Shown here piece by piece: positions 35,640-63,932 of a stretch of 64,000 nucleotides of DNA. Each line of letters starts with the position of its first letter. Position 1 is the first letter of the stretch. Under the pieces are notes generated by a model that saw only the letters and a list, made by a program, of their open reading frames with translations, did not search any database and was not told the DNA's origin. The position numbers and the translations under genes were made by a program. Source of the stretch: Candidatus Chloroploca asiatica (GTDB lineage Bacteria > Chloroflexota > Chloroflexia > Chloroflexales > Chloroflexaceae); contig NZ_LYXE01000127.1 in the NCBI RefSeq assembly GCF_002532075.1, positions 1 through 64,000 on the forward strand. The letters are read 5' to 3'.

Positions 35640-35840
35640 GACATGCTGCCAAAGGGAGTGCCGGCTTCAGCCGGCTAATGGTCTTCCAGAAATTAATCCG
35701 GTATAGCCCGCGCAGGCGGGCTTCGCTTCCCCTAGCCGAGGGCTTTAGCCCTACGGCATCGGGCGGATAGCGGATCATTTACTGCAAAACCATAAGCCGG
35801 CACTCCAGAATACCAGAAAATGTACGTTCCAGACTAGTAA
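35640..35840. repeat. Interrupted copy of the dispersed hairpin repeat
   Basis: AGGGAGTGCCGGC (35653 on) and GCCGGCACTCCAGAATACCAG (to ~35816) are the two arms of the repeat seen intact at 11392-11454, but ~110 bases separate them. The inserted part contains its own hairpins (GCCCGCGCAGGCGGGC; AGCCGAGGGCTTTAGCCC) and no gene. It splits mec from cysO in the sulfur island. Confidence 0.6.
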
Positions 35841-54930: not shown

Positions 54931-56232
54931 ATGGCAAAAGTACAAAATATCAAAGGCATGCGCGACCATTTGCCCCAGGCAATGTTGCTCCGGCAGCACA
55001 TCCTGACGGTGGTGCAACGCGTCTGCGAACGTCACGGTTTTGATCCACTGCAAACACCGGTGATCGAGTATGCCGAAGTGCTTGAAGGCAAACTCGGCGA
55101 CGACGAGAAGCTCATCTACCGGTTTGAAGATCACGGCGGGCGGAGTCTGGCGCTCCGGTATGACCAGACAGTGCCCCTGGCCCGGGTGGTCGCGCAGTAC
55201 GCCGGCCAACTCGCCTTCCCGTGGCGTCGGTACGCCTATGGGCCGAGTTACCGTGGCGAACGTCCGGCCCGTGGGCGCTACCGCGAGTTTTATCAGTTTG
55301 ATGCCGATATTGTCGGGAGCAGTTCGCCGCTGGCCGACGCCGAGATTGTTGCCCTCTTGAGCGAGGCGCTCGCCGAACTCGGCTTTCCCGACTTTGTCAC
55401 CTTGCTCAACCACCGCCAGGTGATTGGCGGCATCGCCCGTGCCAGTGGCCTCGATGAAGCAGCTGCGGGTGGCGTCTACCGGGCCATTGACAAATTCGAC
55501 AAACTTGGCGCAAGCGGGGTTGGCGAGGAACTTGTACGGATGGGCGTCAACACCACCGCAACCGAACAGATCCTTGCCCTGGTGCAGACCGAAGGTTCAC
55601 CTGCGACCGTGTTGGCGACCCTGCGCGAGCACCTGGCTGGTGACGAGCGAGCCGTGGCCGCCCTCGACAACCTGCACGCAATCATCGCAGCACTTGAGGC
55701 AATGGGTGTCCCCCCCGAGCGCTACCGTATAGCCCCACGGCTCGCCCGTGGGCTCTCGTACTACACCGGCCTCGTCTTCGAGACCATTACCCCGCACTGG
55801 CCAGAAGGCTCACTGCTCGGCGGTGGCCGCTACGACGAACTGATCGGCCAGTTTGCTGGACGAGCGATTCCGACGGTCGGGCTTGCCTTTGGCCTTGATC
55901 GCCTGCACGACGTCATGGAAGAGCTAGGGCTTGGGCCGAGGCTGAACACAACCGCGACGGCCTTTGTCACGATCTTTGGGCATGACCTGGCTGGCGAAGC
56001 GATGGCACTTGCCAGCGAATTGCGCGCCGGCGGGGTCAACACCTTGTTGAGCCTTGATCCAACCCAGGGTCTGGGCAAACAATTCAAAGAGGCCGACCGT
56101 AAAAGCGCCCGCTATGCCCTCGTGCTTGGCCCCGACGAACGCGACCGCGGCGAAGTTGTGATCAAAGACCTGCGCGACGGCAGCCAGCGCAGCGTCGCCC
56201 GCGCAGACGTTGTCGCCGCATTGACCCCGTAG
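54931..56232 (+). CDS. hisS: Histidyl-tRNA synthetase
   Basis: A 433-residue class II synthetase of family length. KVQNIKGMRDHLPQ, motif 1 region TPVIEYAEVLEGKLG, motif 2 RGRYREFYQFDADIVGSS, the His A box ARGLSYYTGLVFE, motif 3 GLAFGLDRLHDVMEEL and the anticodon domain KSARYALVLGPDERDRGEVV. Charges tRNA-His. Start 9 bases after the E2-like gene. Confidence 0.97.
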   Translation: MAKVQNIKGMRDHLPQAMLLRQHILTVVQRVCERHGFDPLQTPVIEYAEVLEGKLGDDEKLIYRFEDHGGRSLALRYDQTVPLARVVAQYAGQLAFPWRRYAYGPSYRGERPARGRYREFYQFDADIVGSSSPLADAEIVALLSEALAELGFPDFVTLLNHRQVIGGIARASGLDEAAAGGVYRAIDKFDKLGASGVGEELVRMGVNTTATEQILALVQTEGSPATVLATLREHLAGDERAVAALDNLHAIIAALEAMGVPPERYRIAPRLARGLSYYTGLVFETITPHWPEGSLLGGGRYDELIGQFAGRAIPTVGLAFGLDRLHDVMEELGLGPRLNTTATAFVTIFGHDLAGEAMALASELRAGGVNTLLSLDPTQGLGKQFKEADRKSARYALVLGPDERDRGEVVIKDLRDGSQRSVARADVVAALTP

Positions 56233-56470
56233 GGGCACGGCTTGCCCGTGCCCCTGCCGCGCCGCCGTGCCCCTGCCGCGCCGCCCGTGCCCGGCGTGGG
56301 GGTCACGGCACCGCCGTGCCCCTACCGCGCCGCCGTGCCCCTGCCGCGCCGCCGTGCCCGGCGTGCGGGGCACGGCTTGCCCGTGCCGTGCCGCCCGTGC
56401 CCCTGCCGCGCCGCCGTGCCCCTGCCGCGCCGCCGTGCCCGGCGTGCGGGGCACGGCTTGCCCGTGCCCA
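56230..56470. repeat. GC-rich tandem repeat array
   Basis: About eight imperfect copies of an 18-20 bp unit near CCGTGCCCCTGCCGCGCCG, plus two ~60-bp higher-order copies carrying GTGCCCGGCGTGCGGGGCAC. It begins at the hisS stop and ends at the DUF952 stop, and can form many hairpins (GGGGCACGGCTTGCCCGTGC). Not protein coding on either strand. Confidence 0.85.
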
Positions 56471-56474
56471 CCTG

Positions 56475-57169: not shown

Positions 57170-59602
57170 ATGAAGCGTGTAAGTCTTTTGGTTCTCATTG
57201 CACTGCTCGGGGCGCTCATCGCGGCCTGTGGTGGTGCTCCCGCAGTCCAGCCGACAGCGGCTCCAGGTGCGACCGCTGCGCCTGAGCAGCCCACGACGCC
57301 TCCGGCACCACCGAGTGCTGGTGCGACGATCAAGATTGCTTCACAGAGTCCCCTTAGCGGCCCGCAGGCCGCGCTTGGTACGGGTATTCGCAATGGTGCC
57401 CAGTTGGCGATTGAGCAACTGGCTCAGCCGTTGATCGATCTCGGTTTTACGGTCGAACTGGCCCCGTTTGATGACCAGGCTCGTGCTGAGGTTGGCTCGG
57501 CCAATGCCAAGAACATCGTCTCGGATCCCGAGATTATGTGTGTCGTTGGTCACCTCAACTCGGGCGTGGCGCTAGCCTCGCTGCCCGATTATCAGAATGC
57601 GTCGTTGGCGATGGTGTCGCCGGCCAACACCAACCCGAACATCACCGAAGGTGGCTATGGCGTGGCCTTCCGCGTCGTTGGTCGCGATGATGTGCAGGGT
57701 ATCGTGGGTGAGCAGTTTGCCCGCGAAGAGCTTGAGGTTGAGTCGGTCTATATCATTCACGATACGACCGCGTATGGCCAGGGTGTGGCCGAGTTCTTCC
57801 GCCTCGCGGCTGAAGAGAATGGCATGGAAGTGCTGGGCTTCGAGGGGACCGAGGAGCAGAGTGATTTCTCAGCGATTCTGACCCCGATCCAGGCCGCGAA
57901 TCCTGACCTGATCTACTTCGGTGGGCTCTATCCGCAGGCTGGCCCGCTCTTCCGCCAGGCTCGCGACCGTGGCATCGCGGCGCAGTTCCTTGGCCCGGAC
58001 GGCATGGATAGCCCCGAGTTGGCGACGCTGGCGGGTGATGCCGTTGATGGGATGCATTACACCTCGGTGGCCGCACCGGTGAGCCAGTTCCCCAATGCTG
58101 CCCAGTTTGCGACGGACTACCAGGCGCAGTTCAATGGGACGGCAACGCCCTTCTCGGCGCAGGCCTATGATGCCGCTGGTATCTGTATTACTGGTATTGC
58201 CGCTGCTGCCGAGGCCGCTGGTGGCGTGCCGACCCGTGCCCAGGTGCTTGAAGAGTTGAAGGGTCTGGCCGGCTACGAGGGCATTACGGGCGACTATACC
58301 TTCAATGAGAATGGCGACCCGAACCCGGCAACCTACTTTGTGCTTCAGGCCAATGTTGCTGATTGGAATGCCAATGCGTTGATTACCCGCCTCGAAATTG
58401 CTCCTCCAGGATCTGAGAGTACGACGACGCCTCCTCCTGCGGCAACCGAGGCTGAGCCGCTGGTTGATTTGATTGCTGCGCTCGGGGCTGAAGTTGTCGA
58501 TTTGAACCTCGGCACGATCAAGCTTGCGTCGCAGAGCCCCCTTAGCGGCCCGCAGGCCGCGCTTGGTACCGGTATCCGCAATGGTGCCGAATTGAGCGTC
58601 GAGCAGTTGAATGAGTTGCTGGCCGATGCTGGTGTGACGTTTGAGTTGGCCCCGTTTGATGATCAGGCTCGTGCTGAGGTTGGCTCGGCCAATGCCAAGA
58701 ACATCGTCTCGGATCCCGACATTATGTGTGTCGTTGGTCACCTCAACTCGGGCGTGGCGCTGGCCTCGCTGCCCGATTATCAGAATGCGTCGTTGGCGAT
58801 GGTGTCGCCGGCCAACACCAACCCGAACATCACCGAAGGTGGCTATGGCGTGGCCTTCCGCGTCGTTGGTCGCGATGATGTGCAGGGTATCGTGGGTGAG
58901 CAGTTTGCCCGCGAAGAGCTTGAGGTTGAGTCGGTCTATATCATTCACGATACGACCGCGTATGGCCAGGGTGTGGCCGAGTTCTTCCGCCTCGCGGCTG
59001 AAGAGAATGGCATGGAAGTGCTGGGCTTCGAGGGGACCGAGGAGCAGAGTGATTTCTCAGCGATTCTGACCCCGATCCAGGCCGCGAATCCTGACCTGAT
59101 CTACTTCGGTGGGCTCTATCCGCAGGCTGGCCCGCTCTTCCGCCAGGCTCGCGACCGTGGCATCGCGGCGCAGTTCCTTGGCCCGGACGGCATGGATAGC
59201 CCCGAGTTGGCGACGCTGGCGGGTGATGCCGTTGATGGGATGCACTACACCTCGGTGGCTGCACCGGTGAGCCAGTTCCCCAATGCTGCCCAGTTTGCGA
59301 CGGACTACCAGGCGCAGTTCAATGCCGCTGCGACCCCCTTCTCGGCGCAGGCCTATGACTCGGCTGCCTTCTGTGTGGCCGGTATTCTCCAGGCTGCCGT
59401 TGATGCCGCTGCTGCCCCGACGCGTGCCCAGGTGGTTGACGCGATCCGTGGCTTGCCGACCCTTGGTGGCATTACTGGTGACTACAAGTTCAATGAGAAT
59501 GGTGATCCCGAGGTTGCGACCTACTTCGTGCTCCAGGCCAACATTGTTGACTGGAACGAGAATCTCCTGATCACCCGGTTGGATATTGCGCCGCCGCAAT
59601 AG
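57170..59602 (+). CDS. Branched-chain amino acid type binding lipoprotein with two tandem binding domains
   Basis: An 810-residue lipoprotein (signal LLVLIALLGALIAAC; Pro/Ala/Thr linker to ~residue 44). Two Peripla_BP_6/LivK domains follow, about residues 45-415 and 441-810, each starting IKxASQSPLSGPQAALGTGI. Normal LivK proteins have one domain (~380 residues). The second copy is offset by exactly 396 codons; 57472-58132 and 58660-59320 are almost identical in DNA, while the C-terminal parts of the domains have diverged (YDAAGICITGIAAAAEAAGG against YDSAAFCVAGILQAAVDAAA). It should capture amino acids or similar ligands for the LivHMGF transporter downstream; either domain could dock. Confidence 0.92.
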   Translation: MKRVSLLVLIALLGALIAACGGAPAVQPTAAPGATAAPEQPTTPPAPPSAGATIKIASQSPLSGPQAALGTGIRNGAQLAIEQLAQPLIDLGFTVELAPFDDQARAEVGSANAKNIVSDPEIMCVVGHLNSGVALASLPDYQNASLAMVSPANTNPNITEGGYGVAFRVVGRDDVQGIVGEQFAREELEVESVYIIHDTTAYGQGVAEFFRLAAEENGMEVLGFEGTEEQSDFSAILTPIQAANPDLIYFGGLYPQAGPLFRQARDRGIAAQFLGPDGMDSPELATLAGDAVDGMHYTSVAAPVSQFPNAAQFATDYQAQFNGTATPFSAQAYDAAGICITGIAAAAEAAGGVPTRAQVLEELKGLAGYEGITGDYTFNENGDPNPATYFVLQANVADWNANALITRLEIAPPGSESTTTPPPAATEAEPLVDLIAALGAEVVDLNLGTIKLASQSPLSGPQAALGTGIRNGAELSVEQLNELLADAGVTFELAPFDDQARAEVGSANAKNIVSDPDIMCVVGHLNSGVALASLPDYQNASLAMVSPANTNPNITEGGYGVAFRVVGRDDVQGIVGEQFAREELEVESVYIIHDTTAYGQGVAEFFRLAAEENGMEVLGFEGTEEQSDFSAILTPIQAANPDLIYFGGLYPQAGPLFRQARDRGIAAQFLGPDGMDSPELATLAGDAVDGMHYTSVAAPVSQFPNAAQFATDYQAQFNAAATPFSAQAYDSAAFCVAGILQAAVDAAAAPTRAQVVDAIRGLPTLGGITGDYKFNENGDPEVATYFVLQANIVDWNENLLITRLDIAPPQ

Positions 59603-59752: not shown

Positions 59753-60925
59753 ATGGCTGCGGAAGCAAACGCCCAAACGTCAGCTCAAGCTGTTCGACGC
59801 CCCATCGTTGAGACTCTGCGAACCGTCTTTGGCCCGCTTGTCCAGTTGTTGATCTTTGTAGTTGGCAGTGCCGTCGCGTTGAGTTTGTTGGTTATCTTGC
59901 TGTCACTGGTGCAACTTGGCGCACGCCCCGATCTTTTGACCCGTACGCTGACCATTCTCCCGCAGGTGCTTATTGATGGTCTGGTGCGCGGGTTTCTTTT
60001 TTCGACCATCGCGCTCGGCTATACGATGGTCTATGGTGTGCTCGAGTTTATTAACTTTGCCCACGGTGAGATCTTTATGGTGGGTGGCGTCACCGGGGCG
60101 GCGGTGGGGTTGTTTCTGGCGAGTATTGGTCTCCTGGAAGGGATGAACCCTCTGTTCTTTGTGCTGCTGGTGGTGCTGATCGGGATGATCGTCAGTGGGA
60201 CGCTGGCCGTGACCGTGGAACGAGTCGCCTATCGCCCATTGCGAGGTACGCCGCGTCTGGTGCCGCTGATTTCAGCCATCGGGGTGTCGCTGGTGCTCCA
60301 GGATGTTGTGCGCTTGATTATGACCAATTCCCCGATGGGTTTCAATGCGCGTTATAATGCCCCTGATTTTGGCCCGCCGATTCGCCTCTTTGAGATGACC
60401 CTTGGTGATCGCCCCGTGCCGATTATTATTAGTCCCAAGGCGTTGGTCTTCATTAGCGCTGCGGTGATTATGCTCATTGTGCTCAATTATCTGGTGAATG
60501 CAACCCGTCTTGGCAAAGCTATTCGGGCGACCGCACAGGATATGCCGACAGCAAGTTTGATGGGCATTAATGTCAATCGCATTATTACCCTCACCTTCTT
60601 GATCGGCGGGGCTCTGGGTGGTGCCGCTGGGGCGCTCTTTGGCCTCAATGTCGGGACGGTCAATCCTTATATGGGCTTTATTCCTGGTCTCAAGGCGTTT
60701 ACGGCTGCGGTGCTCGGTGGCATCGGCAATATTACTGGTGCAATGGTCGGCGGGTTGGTGCTTGGCTTCCTCGAGGCGTTTGTGGCGTCGTATCTGTCGC
60801 TCTTTACCAATGGTGCCCTCTCTGGAGCTGCCTATGCCGATATTGTTGCCTTCAGTATCCTGATTCTGATCCTGATCTTCCGACCCTCCGGCTTGCTCGG
60901 TGAGTCGACAACGCAGAAGGTGTAG
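59753..60925 (+). CDS. livH: Branched-chain amino acid ABC permease LivH
   Basis: A 390-residue permease with about nine helices, longer than the usual ~300 owing to an N-terminal extension with an extra helix (VQLLIFVVGSAVALSLLVIL). Core: GYTMVYGVLEFINFAHGEIFM, RVAYRPLRGTPRLVPLISAIG, TAQDMPTASLMGINVNRIIT and GLKAFTAAVLGGIGNITGAM. ATG 59753 has GAGG just upstream; an upstream in-frame extension covers the hairpins. Confidence 0.94.
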   Translation: MAAEANAQTSAQAVRRPIVETLRTVFGPLVQLLIFVVGSAVALSLLVILLSLVQLGARPDLLTRTLTILPQVLIDGLVRGFLFSTIALGYTMVYGVLEFINFAHGEIFMVGGVTGAAVGLFLASIGLLEGMNPLFFVLLVVLIGMIVSGTLAVTVERVAYRPLRGTPRLVPLISAIGVSLVLQDVVRLIMTNSPMGFNARYNAPDFGPPIRLFEMTLGDRPVPIIISPKALVFISAAVIMLIVLNYLVNATRLGKAIRATAQDMPTASLMGINVNRIITLTFLIGGALGGAAGALFGLNVGTVNPYMGFIPGLKAFTAAVLGGIGNITGAMVGGLVLGFLEAFVASYLSLFTNGALSGAAYADIVAFSILILILIFRPSGLLGESTTQKV

Positions 60926-60927
60926 CT

Positions 60928-62307
60928 ATGGCGACGATGTCTCCACCAACCAATCTCTGGGAGCAGGTGAAGGCTACATTATCGCGTGGGCCGACCGGCT
61001 ATAGCTTTCTCGGTCTGTATGCAGCGATCTGTACCTGGCTCTTGCTGACGAATCCGCGGACAAGCCTCAATACCGATATTGCCTTTGCCCTTTTTCTGCT
61101 GCTGCTGCTCATTATCTATCGCTCGCAAGTGGCCCTTGGCTTCAAGGTCGTGCTCGGTGGCGCAATGCTGCTGGTCGTCTTGCCGATCTTTGGAACACTC
61201 AATCCCTTCTATATTGATGTGGCGACCCAGGCTGGTATCTTTGTCGCGCTGGCCCTTGGGCTCAATGTGGTAGTCGGTTTTGCGGGCTTGCTTGACCTTG
61301 GCTACGTGGCCTTTTTTGCTGTCGGGGCCTATCTCTGGGGGATCTTGAGTACCGAACAGATGACGCTCATGAATCCGGCCTGGAGCCCAGTGCCGCCGAT
61401 TATGTTCTACCCTTTTATTTTCCTTGGCCTGATCGTCGGAGCGATTTTTGGTGTGCTCCTTGGCCTCCCGGTGCTGCGCTTGCGAGGCGATTATCTGGCG
61501 ATTGTTACCCTTGGCTTTGGTGAGGTGATCCGGGTGCTGGCTAATAACCTTGATCGCCCGATCAATATTACCAATGGTTCGCAGGGTATTCGTGGTATCG
61601 CACGCCCTCCGCTGATTTTTGCCGATTTTGTGCGCGATACCCTTGGCCTCAACCTTGATGACCAGCAACTCTATCAGCAGTTTTTCTACTTTGCGGTGCT
61701 GCTGATTGTGCTGTTGACGGTGGTGGTTGTGAGTCGCCTCAAGCACTCGCGGATCGGACGTGCCTGGGAAGCGATTCGTGAGGACGAAACCGCCGCGATT
61801 GCTCAGGGTATTCCGCTGGTGCGTACCAAATTGCTGGCCTTTGCCGTCGGCGCTTCGTTTGCCGGGGCGATGGGCGTGATCTTTGCCTCCAAGCAACTCT
61901 TCATCAATCCGCCGACCTTCGACCTCATTCGGTCGATCAATATTCTGGCGATGGTCATTCTTGGTGGGATGGGGTCGATTCCTGGGGTTATGCTTGGGGC
62001 CGTGCTGGTGACCATGCTCGATCTGCAGATTTTGCCCCGTTTGGCGAACGTACTGCGTGATCTGCAGCGTGCCGGTGCGCCGATTCCGTCGGCCTTTGAT
62101 CCAACCCAGTATCAGCGCCTCTTCTTTGGTCTGCTGCTGATCTTGATGATGATCTTTCGCCCCACCGGAATTCTTCCTGATGAACGACGTAAGGAAGAGT
62201 TGGTAGATGATCAAGAGGTGGATTTGCCCCTCGATGCTGGCGAAGTTGATGGTGGCGAGCCACCCTCGCCGACCCAGGCCCCGCCCGGTAGTGGCCCAAT
62301 TGCTTAG
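60928..62307 (+). CDS. livM: Branched-chain amino acid ABC permease LivM
   Basis: A 459-residue permease with about ten helices: FVALALGLNVVVGFAGLLDL, GYVAFFAVGAYLWGIL, RLRGDYLAIVTLGFGEVIRV, AWEAIREDETAAIAQGIPL and LAMVILGGMGSIPGVMLGAV. Two-base gap after livH. It ends with a ~45-residue acidic, Pro-rich cytosolic tail (ELVDDQEVDLPLDAGEVDGG). Confidence 0.95.
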   Translation: MATMSPPTNLWEQVKATLSRGPTGYSFLGLYAAICTWLLLTNPRTSLNTDIAFALFLLLLLIIYRSQVALGFKVVLGGAMLLVVLPIFGTLNPFYIDVATQAGIFVALALGLNVVVGFAGLLDLGYVAFFAVGAYLWGILSTEQMTLMNPAWSPVPPIMFYPFIFLGLIVGAIFGVLLGLPVLRLRGDYLAIVTLGFGEVIRVLANNLDRPINITNGSQGIRGIARPPLIFADFVRDTLGLNLDDQQLYQQFFYFAVLLIVLLTVVVVSRLKHSRIGRAWEAIREDETAAIAQGIPLVRTKLLAFAVGASFAGAMGVIFASKQLFINPPTFDLIRSINILAMVILGGMGSIPGVMLGAVLVTMLDLQILPRLANVLRDLQRAGAPIPSAFDPTQYQRLFFGLLLILMMIFRPTGILPDERRKEELVDDQEVDLPLDAGEVDGGEPPSPTQAPPGSGPIA

Positions 62308-62331: not shown

Positions 62332-63111
62332 ATGGCGCTGTTGGAAGCAACCAACGTTACCAAAACCTTTGGCGGCTTGACTGCGGTCAACGATGTGACG
62401 CTGATCATCGAAAAGGGCGTGATCGCCAGTGTGATCGGGCCCAATGGCGCAGGCAAGACGACGTTTTTTAATATGTTGACCGGGATCTATAAGCCCGATA
62501 AAGGGGCGATCCTCTTTGATGGCAAGTCGATCGGTGGGACGCGCCCCGATCAGATTGCGGCCCTTGGGATGCGGCGGACGTTTCAAAATATTCGCCTTTT
62601 TGATAACATGACGGTGCTCGAAAATGTGCTGGTGGGGATGCATACCCGCCTGCGCGTTCCGTTCTGGCAGATTATCGCGAGCGCTCCTGGTGTTCGTCGT
62701 GAAGAGACGAAGGCCCGCGATGAGGCTCGTGAACGCCTTGCTTACGTTGGCCTTGATGCTAAACGCGAAGAGCTTGCCAAGAATTTACCCTACGGTGATC
62801 AGCGTCGCCTTGAGATTGCCCGCGCCCTCGCTGGTGATCCCAAGTTGATTTTGCTCGATGAGCCGACCGCAGGGATGAATCCCCAGGAGACCGATGCCGC
62901 TACGGGTTTGATTCGACGTCTCCGCGATGACCTTGGTCTCACTGTGGTGCTGATTGAACACGATATGCGCCTCGTGATGGCGATTTCTGAGCGCATTTCA
63001 GTGCTTGATTATGGGACGAAGATCGCTGAGGGAGATGCGCATACGATTCGTTCCAATCCGCGGGTGATCGAGGCTTACCTCGGTAAGGGGGCCGCCGGGG
63101 CCGCTGCCTAG
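62332..63111 (+). CDS. livG: Branched-chain amino acid ABC ATPase LivG
   Basis: A 259-residue ATPase: Walker A GPNGAGKTTFFNMLTGIYKP, LivG-type GMRRTFQNIRLFDNMTVLEN, signature-equivalent LPYGDQRRLEIARALAG, Walker B LILLDEPTAGMNPQET and switch IEHDMRLVM. Couples ATP to amino acid uptake with LivF. Confidence 0.96.
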   Translation: MALLEATNVTKTFGGLTAVNDVTLIIEKGVIASVIGPNGAGKTTFFNMLTGIYKPDKGAILFDGKSIGGTRPDQIAALGMRRTFQNIRLFDNMTVLENVLVGMHTRLRVPFWQIIASAPGVRREETKARDEARERLAYVGLDAKREELAKNLPYGDQRRLEIARALAGDPKLILLDEPTAGMNPQETDAATGLIRRLRDDLGLTVVLIEHDMRLVMAISERISVLDYGTKIAEGDAHTIRSNPRVIEAYLGKGAAGAAA

Positions 63112-63215: not shown

Positions 63216-63932
63216 ATGGCTCTACTCAAGCTCGAAGATGTCCATACATACTACGGTAAAATTCACGCTTTAAAGGGTATTTCCCTTACTGTCAATAAAG
63301 GTGAGATTGTTACCCTGATTGGCTCGAATGGTGCCGGGAAGAGTACTACCCTGCGGACGATCTCAGGGTTGCTTGTGCCTCGCCAGGGGCAAGTGGTGCT
63401 GAATGATGAGCGGATCGACCGCATTCCATCACACGAGATTGTGAAGCGTGGGATTGCGCAGTCGCCCGAAGGTCGTCGGATCTTCCCGCGTCTGACGGTG
63501 CTCGAAAATCTTGAGATGGGGGCGTATCTCCATAGTACGCGCAGTGTGACCTATCAAGAGGATCTTGAGCGCGTTTTTACGCTCTTCCCGCGCCTCCGCG
63601 AGCGCGTTTCCCAGAAGGGTGGTACCCTCTCGGGTGGTGAACAGCAGATGCTGGCGATTGGACGCGCCTTGATGACCCGCCCTCAGGTGCTCTTGCTCGA
63701 TGAACCTTCCATGGGCCTCGCCCCCGTGCTGGTTGAACAGATTTTTGAGATTATCGAGACGATTAATGCCCAGGGGATGACCGTGCTCCTCGTTGAACAG
63801 AATGCGCTTCAGGCGCTCGGCATTGCCCACCGTGGCTATGTGCTGCAGAGCGGCCGGATTATTCTTGAGGATGAAGCCAAAGCGCTGCGTGAAAATGAGA
63901 CGGTGCAGAAGTCGTATCTCGGCCTCGAATAA
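63216..63932 (+). CDS. livF: Branched-chain amino acid ABC ATPase LivF
   Basis: A 238-residue ATPase: Walker A GSNGAGKSTTLRTISGLLVP, RGIAQSPEGRRIFPRLTVLEN, signature LSGGEQQMLAIGRALMT, Walker B LLLDEPSMGLAPVLVEQIFE and VEQNALQALGIAHRGYVLQ. Last gene of the operon; a 104-base gap with an imperfect hairpin separates it from livG, and a clear terminator follows. Confidence 0.96.
   Translation: MALLKLEDVHTYYGKIHALKGISLTVNKGEIVTLIGSNGAGKSTTLRTISGLLVPRQGQVVLNDERIDRIPSHEIVKRGIAQSPEGRRIFPRLTVLENLEMGAYLHSTRSVTYQEDLERVFTLFPRLRERVSQKGGTLSGGEQQMLAIGRALMTRPQVLLLDEPSMGLAPVLVEQIFEIIETINAQGMTVLLVEQNALQALGIAHRGYVLQSGRIILEDEAKALRENETVQKSYLGLE

Follow-up and report, generated by a model that had tools for sequence, protein, structure and literature searches.

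The window analysed here, a stretch of 64,000 nucleotides of Candidatus Chloroploca asiatica DNA (genome G000 in the comparisons below), carries a gene for a putative substrate-binding lipoprotein with two domains, designated D1 and D2, followed by Liv-like permease and ATPase genes. The features of the locus, all on the forward strand, are as follows:

57170..59602, +, CDS of the putative two-domain substrate-binding lipoprotein of 810 aa (open frame from ATG to TAG, two Peripla_BP_6 stretches)
57170..57229, +, putative lipoprotein signal peptide ending in a lipobox-like LIAAC with Cys20 (sequence reading and a simple pattern)
57230..57319, +, Pro/Thr/Ala-rich tether, residues 21-50 (sequence reading)
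57320..58414, +, D1, residues 51-415 (sequence and Pfam)
57461..58135, +, homogenised block, D1 copy, residues 98-322 (two-state fit)
57575..58056, +, longest exact run, 482 bp, with its partner at 58763-59244
58415..58507, +, interdomain linker, residues 416-446, a low-confidence part and then a short predicted helix (AlphaFold model, linker comparison)
58508..59599, +, D2, residues 447-810 (sequence and Pfam)
58649..59323, +, homogenised block, D2 copy (two-state fit, offset 1188)
59753..60925, +, LivH-like permease (Pfam BPD_transp_2; nearest NCBIfam model LivH, 212.7 bits, below its cut-off of 379)
60928..62307, +, LivM-like permease (Pfam BPD_transp_2; nearest NCBIfam model LivM, below cut-off)
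62332..63111, +, LivG-like ATPase (Pfam ABC_tran and BCA_ABC_TP_C; nearest NCBIfam model LivG, below cut-off)
63216..63932, +, LivF-like ATPase (Pfam ABC_tran; nearest NCBIfam model LivF, below cut-off)

The preliminary description of this DNA proposed two full Peripla_BP_6 domains in one frame, and this architecture was confirmed by the open frame, by Pfam and by in-frame alignment, D1 and D2 being spaced by exactly 1188 bp or 396 codons. Peripla_BP_6 (PF13458) matches two stretches of the protein with 314.7 bits (whole-protein E 1.4e-93), above the gathering cut-off of 31.7 bits. The best NCBIfam match is a LivJ/LivK-type model (PRK15404 / NF011933) with 396.7 bits, under the curated cut-off of 477, so the receptor is said here to work like LivK rather than to be LivK. 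The putative lipobox LIAAC (residues 16-20) was recognised by eye and with a simple pattern.

The gene order SBP-LivH-LivM-LivG-LivF, in one direction and named after Pfam and the nearest NCBIfam models, was also found in G001, G013, G022 and G010 among the five two-domain relatives checked, the contig of the fifth (G024) ending first. The start of the LivH-like gene was placed at the ATG at 59753, in an open frame that runs from 59636. The receptor CDS stops at 59602 and the permease frame is separate, and the fusion of binding domains to the permease that characterises importers of the GlnPQ/OpuA type is not seen in the Chloroploca receptor. Upstream lie a DUF952 gene on the opposite strand and hisS. 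An Rfam search at gathering thresholds gave no match to an upstream RNA regulator near the receptor gene. Two further elements of the window are a G+C-rich stretch of repeats, both direct and inverted (56229-56472), that lies between the DUF952 gene and hisS, and a lone Rfam CRISPR-DR28 match at 35704-35727 (39.9 bits, threshold 35), with no array between 34500 and 37000.

Homogenisation of the domain core

The preliminary description also reported a near-identical block, 57472-58132 and 58660-59320, between diverged flanks, and took it for the outcome of gene conversion between older duplicates. The two copies of the block indeed differ by 5 single bases per 661 nt, located in codons 102, 121, 135, 296 and 301, four of the changes being silent and one an E/D replacement. 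A two-state fit placed the tract at domain residues 48-272, with 0.7% difference inside and 30% outside. Divergence of the flanks was borne out with the refinement that it is uneven, since D1-D2 identity is 85% over domain residues 1-25, 62% over 26-48 and 68% over 273-365. At most 160 identical codons follow one another without a break, a length reached in 0/5000 codon-order shuffles (maximum 49); with same-residue codons only, the figure is 156, and none of 5000 shuffles gave more than 76.

An assembly error could leave such a pattern behind, either by merging two diverged copies into a block consensus or by doubling a single domain. The strain assembly is taken to derive from 150-bp paired reads and SPAdes, according to the available text of PMC6180586, and in the related genome G002 the block contains a 446-base N gap, both of which speak for an error of this kind. 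The tract is nevertheless also present in three single-contig assemblies (G043, 0 differences over residues 49-257; G046, 0.9%; G044, 5.1%), and the domain ends differ at 30% of sites, which means that both copies exist. An artefact is thus considered very unlikely.

D1 and D2 were then compared codon by codon in the 12 two-domain genomes, the block being set at domain residues 52-272 and pS denoting the proportion of synonymous differences. The codon analyses and DNA trees were run without D1 of G054, where the frame changes, and without D1 of G007 and D2 of G047, which are cut by contig ends; the same DNA trees also omit the rows of the f2 outgroup. The protein tree includes the partial D1 sequences of G007 and G054. 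This comparison of synonymous divergence along the two halves, suggested in the preliminary description, gave for the Chloroploca asiatica gene a pS of 0.03 in the block and 0.59 in the C-terminal part. Within-gene block pS was 0.03 in G001, 0.04 in G043, 0.10 in G046, 0.13 in G010, 0.17 in G013, 0.20 in G053, 0.21 in G045, 0.25 in G044, 0.30 in G024 and G048, and 0.44 in G022. Within-gene C-terminal pS ranged from 0.40 to 0.61 and exceeded block pS in 12/12 genomes, the two values being near each other in G022 (0.44 and 0.52).

Without any copying, purifying selection alone, if strong on the core of the protein, might keep the blocks alike, and it would account for the core being the most conserved part between species too. 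It is contradicted by the homogenisation of silent sites, given the contrast of 0.03 and 0.59 within the same gene, and by the run of 156 identical same-residue codons; the probability of this explanation is practically negligible.

Between the two Chloroploca genomes G000 and G001 the block pS was 0.18-0.20 in all four domain pairings, and the C-terminal pS was 0.19-0.20 for like domains and 0.61-0.62 for unlike ones. Block substitutions are common to both domains within a genome and differ between the two genomes. This contrast indicates homogenisation of the block, but not of the ends, after the species split. In 9/12 genomes D1 has its own D2 as sister in the tree built from block DNA, the exceptions being G048, G045 and G022, in which the last copying, as judged from the tree, would predate their separation. 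Constraining all D1s together was rejected (p-AU 3.4e-23), as were D2 with the one-domain proteins (1.3e-42) and G000 D1 with G001 D1 (6.0e-4).

The two-state fit found a tract in 12/12 two-domain genomes. Its 5' edge lies at residues 48-52 in 10/12 of them (78 in G001, 73 in G053) and its 3' end at residues 222-289 across the 12. The 99% identity across a limited block, seen in the Chloroploca asiatica strain by itself, would suit one recent local duplication or one conversion event in that strain. Homogenised tracts in all the two-domain genomes, which belong to several genera, and the genome-specific block substitutions of the two Chloroploca are at odds with a single recent event, which is contradicted by the codon comparison, the block tree and the p-AU tests alike and has to be judged extremely improbable.

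The run-length test was also applied genome by genome. With all codons, the observed run was reached in 0/5000 shuffles in 8 genomes, in 11 for G048, 16 for G022, 275 for G013 and 1249 for G024; with same-residue codons, the counts of 5000 were 0 in 5 genomes, 5 for G045, 8 for G044, 32 for G053, 181 for G048, 367 for G022, 1551 for G013 and 2279 for G024. The test was therefore non-significant for G013 and G024 on all codons and also for G048 and G022 on same-residue codons. Within single genomes, these shuffles make a strong case for conversion in some eight of them and a weak one in Viridilinea, G048 and G022. GC3 was computed for 10 genomes and in most of them is slightly higher in the block than in the C-terminal part; this does not hold for G010 and holds only partly for G022 and Viridilinea, and no claim of biased conversion is made.

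Silent-site likeness greater within than between species, next to flanks with an older history, is the pattern of concerted evolution, and it was found here with the exceptions of G048, G045 and G022. The conversion proposed in the preliminary description is supported by the codon comparison, the block trees and the two-state fits as recurrent gene conversion between older domain duplicates, across genera. Concerted evolution of the tuf type in prokaryotes, as presented in the available text of PMC6053082, is alike in that paralogues are closer within than between species through recurrent gene conversion; it differs in that the tuf units are whole separate genes, whereas in the Chloroploca receptor they are domains within one reading frame and the middle of each only is concerned.

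Distribution and origin of the two-domain form

A search for the 810-residue type of protein among relatives, also advised in the preliminary description, found two complete domains in one frame in 12/41 family genomes, Chloroploca asiatica included (G000, G001, G010, G013, G022, G024, G043, G044, G045, G046, G048 and G053; G043, G044 and G046 are the single-contig assemblies). The possibility raised there that relatives all carry a one-domain protein does not agree with these counts, the complete one-domain form being likewise present in 12/41 (G005, G020, G050, G051, G052, G006, G055, G056, G012, G023, G041 and G015). Among the remaining genomes, G008 shows one domain where its contig begins, just a distant one-domain relative and fragments occur in G016 and G049, and seven (G003, G004, G009, G011, G019, G021 and G042) gave no match at E 1e-40, with fragments in G011 at a looser limit.

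Three domains in a frame of 1234 residues were found in G017 only. In this genome (RM2_2_1, L034:7675-11376) the first and third domains are sisters (98/94) and the second is diverged; the form looks like a separate expansion, to judge from its tree position.

The gene is broken or undecidable at the repeat in 6/41 genomes: G002 (446 N), G007, G047, G014 and G018 (contig ends) and G054 (frame change in D1). In G002, a third Chloroploca, the run of N at L033:7984-8429 lies within the block and makes a two-domain gene mimic a one-domain gene of 432 residues, and in Oscillochloris sp. ZM17-4 (G054, L072) the frame change inside D1, be it genuine or a sequencing error, would shrink the annotated protein to 578 residues. 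The risk of collapse or expansion in assembly, noted in the preliminary description, thus does not apply to the architecture, which recurs in 12/41 genomes and in three single contigs, and does apply to other drafts, with the gap in G002 and several contigs ending inside the block.

In a class-wide search with D2, 42/158 genomes matched at E 1e-70. All 12 two-domain frames and the three-domain frame were within Chloroflexaceae, and the 11 matching genomes outside the family had one match each. Among the loci L066-L159, 20/102 matching open frames contained at least two domains, all from Chloroflexaceae, several genomes being counted twice. One-domain relatives with 51-58% identity were also met in records titled Rokubacteria, Armatimonadota and Desulfobulbaceae/deltaproteobacteria (L113-L117, L133, L136), which may be a pointer to lateral transfer.

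The one-domain proteins look like an anchor followed by the linker and D2. This likeness follows from comparisons of sequences and trees. A short helix-like segment precedes the domain in 11/11 complete one-domain core-clade proteins used in the trees (g4, g5, g11); it resembles the interdomain linker and is unlike the start of D1, 25/27 residues matching, as counted by eye, between the G056 segment and the G053 linker. The C-terminal parts of the one-domain proteins group with D2 (96/99 for C-terminal DNA, 81/95 for protein of both flanks), a grouping that the best tree from the DNA of the two flanks lacks (p-AU 0.38). At positions 43, 45, 294 and 319, D1 is like the Roseiflexus-type outgroup and D2 like the one-domain proteins.

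On such a reading either D1 would have been lost several times (about six, counted on the transporter tree) or it would have been inserted several times. Equal-cost parsimony on the transporter tree favours gains, with 4 changes in total including the three-domain form. A comparable short stretch precedes the domain in the f2 outgroup as well, and on that evidence the linker would predate D1. Trees of the parts outside the block are also compatible with an independent duplication in each lineage: on 114 protein columns outside the block, D1 and D2 together were not rejected (p-AU 0.40 for Chloroflexus, 0.13 for Chloroploca plus Viridilinea, 0.12 for Oscillochloris ZM). With the same parts as DNA, D1 and D2 of Chloroflexus were already together (70/95), and their union was not rejected for Chloroploca plus Viridilinea (0.095) or Oscillochloris ZM (0.116).

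Binding pockets, domain ends and predicted function

The nearest solved chains are 4n0q (with leucine), 3ip5 (Atu2422), 1usg (the leucine-binding protein) and 3td9. LivJ/LivK and these related proteins share the Peripla_BP_6 fold with the Chloroploca receptor across each whole domain, and the adjoining Liv-like permease and ATPase genes are a further likeness to LivJ/LivK, but they are one-domain proteins, whereas the receptor has two domains per chain and its identity to them is about 26-31%. Eleven positions, which we take to be those of the LivK pocket, were mapped through the alignment; with this assignment, D1 and D2 agree in every one of the 12 genomes at 10/11 of them, and 9/11 lie inside the block. 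Relative to 1usg, and on the same assumed positions, S79, T102, D121 and Y150 are kept and W18, G100, Y202 and E226 are replaced.

In the AlphaFold model two confident domains (mean pLDDT 86.8) are joined by a linker with pLDDT under 50, and pTM is 0.53. The model suggests an arrangement like beads on a string, D1 and D2 not being fixed to each other. For tethered domains the preliminary description suggested better local ligand capture or two docking states; either may apply, and the model gives no confident packing of D1 against D2. A fixed intramolecular D1-D2 pair was considered and found unsupported, given the pTM, the linker values and the lack of a confident interface.

The binding domains of GlnPQ belong to a fold family other than that of the Chloroploca receptor. 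In GlnPQ of Lactococcus lactis, according to the available part of PMC8025302, tandem domains are fused to the permease and each binds largely independently of the other. The likeness lies in tandem substrate-binding domains with a flexible linker serving one ABC importer; the same text gives the GlnPQ domains as fused to the transmembrane domain and differing in ligand specificity, whereas the Chloroploca receptor is a separate putative lipoprotein with the same pockets. By analogy with GlnPQ, D1 and D2 would bind largely independently, with one specificity and not two.

The best explanation of the locus, to which a probability of about 0.7 is given, is a Liv-type receptor for branched-chain or hydrophobic amino acids with two pockets of the same specificity on one lipid anchor and a recurrently converted core. 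One putative lipid anchor would carry two full Venus-flytrap domains on a flexible linker; both pockets being alike, D1 and D2 would probably bind the same amino acid or acids and hand them to the LivHMGF-like transporter of the neighbouring genes, and the tandem would give more binding sites per anchor. The domain core (about residues 50-270) is rewritten repeatedly by conversion between D1 and D2, helix 1/strand 2 and the C-terminal part remaining distinct. In this picture the architecture, its conservation and the concerted evolution are established, and the lipid anchoring, ligand class, docking and benefit are predicted. Counted against the explanation are the LivJ/LivK-type score below its cut-off, the lack of a confident domain arrangement in the AlphaFold model, the exceptions G048, G045 and G022 in the block tree, the closeness of the two pS values in G022 and the non-significant run-length tests. 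A further point against it is the complete one-domain form in 12/41 family genomes, which means that this importer can do without a second domain. An envelope of diderm-like appearance is described for Chloroflexus aggregans and Ca. Viridilinea mediisalina in the available text of PMC7332563, and by extension the receptor anchor may sit in the cytoplasmic membrane under the outer layer.

Thirteen domain positions have no letter common to the 12 D1s and the 12 D2s, namely 1, 35, 36, 37, 43, 45, 291, 294, 295, 298, 319, 320 and 364 (365 is merely a length difference), and none of them lies between 46 and 290. In the AlphaFold model the first group is near the end of helix 1 and in strand 2 and the second in the C-terminal helices and beyond. 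This distribution, together with a 5' tract edge that is almost fixed in 10/12 genomes, would fit a division of labour in which conversion keeps the pockets the same and the uncopied ends carry a difference in the jobs of D1 and D2, for example one docking on the permease and the other only capturing or handing over. The model, however, has no confident interface, and conversion would be hindered in any case where identity is low, as it is outside the block, so that fixed tract edges need no selection; a division of labour is possible, if on balance unlikely. Its more specific form is doubtful: conversion would split the receptor into a shared ligand-binding core and a private helix 1/strand 2 and C-terminal helices free to specialise, giving a two-step capture-and-deliver device on one anchor kept across genera.

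No paper on this receptor was found among the matches listed for tandem binding domains, Chloroflexus transport proteins, concerted evolution or conversion within genes and Peripla_BP_6 duplications, in a search with many journals outside its scope. Tandem binding domains are already known, as in GlnPQ, and the Chloroploca receptor is a variation on them. For annotation the locus is a warning, as drafts of Chloroflexaceae break, gap or shorten the receptor gene at the repeat. For biology it is a clear case of concerted evolution within one bacterial reading frame and a natural experiment in the evolution of two receptor domains within one chain: across the genera the core is kept identical even at silent positions and the ends are different, which predicts an end-linked difference in role that swapping of the ends could test.
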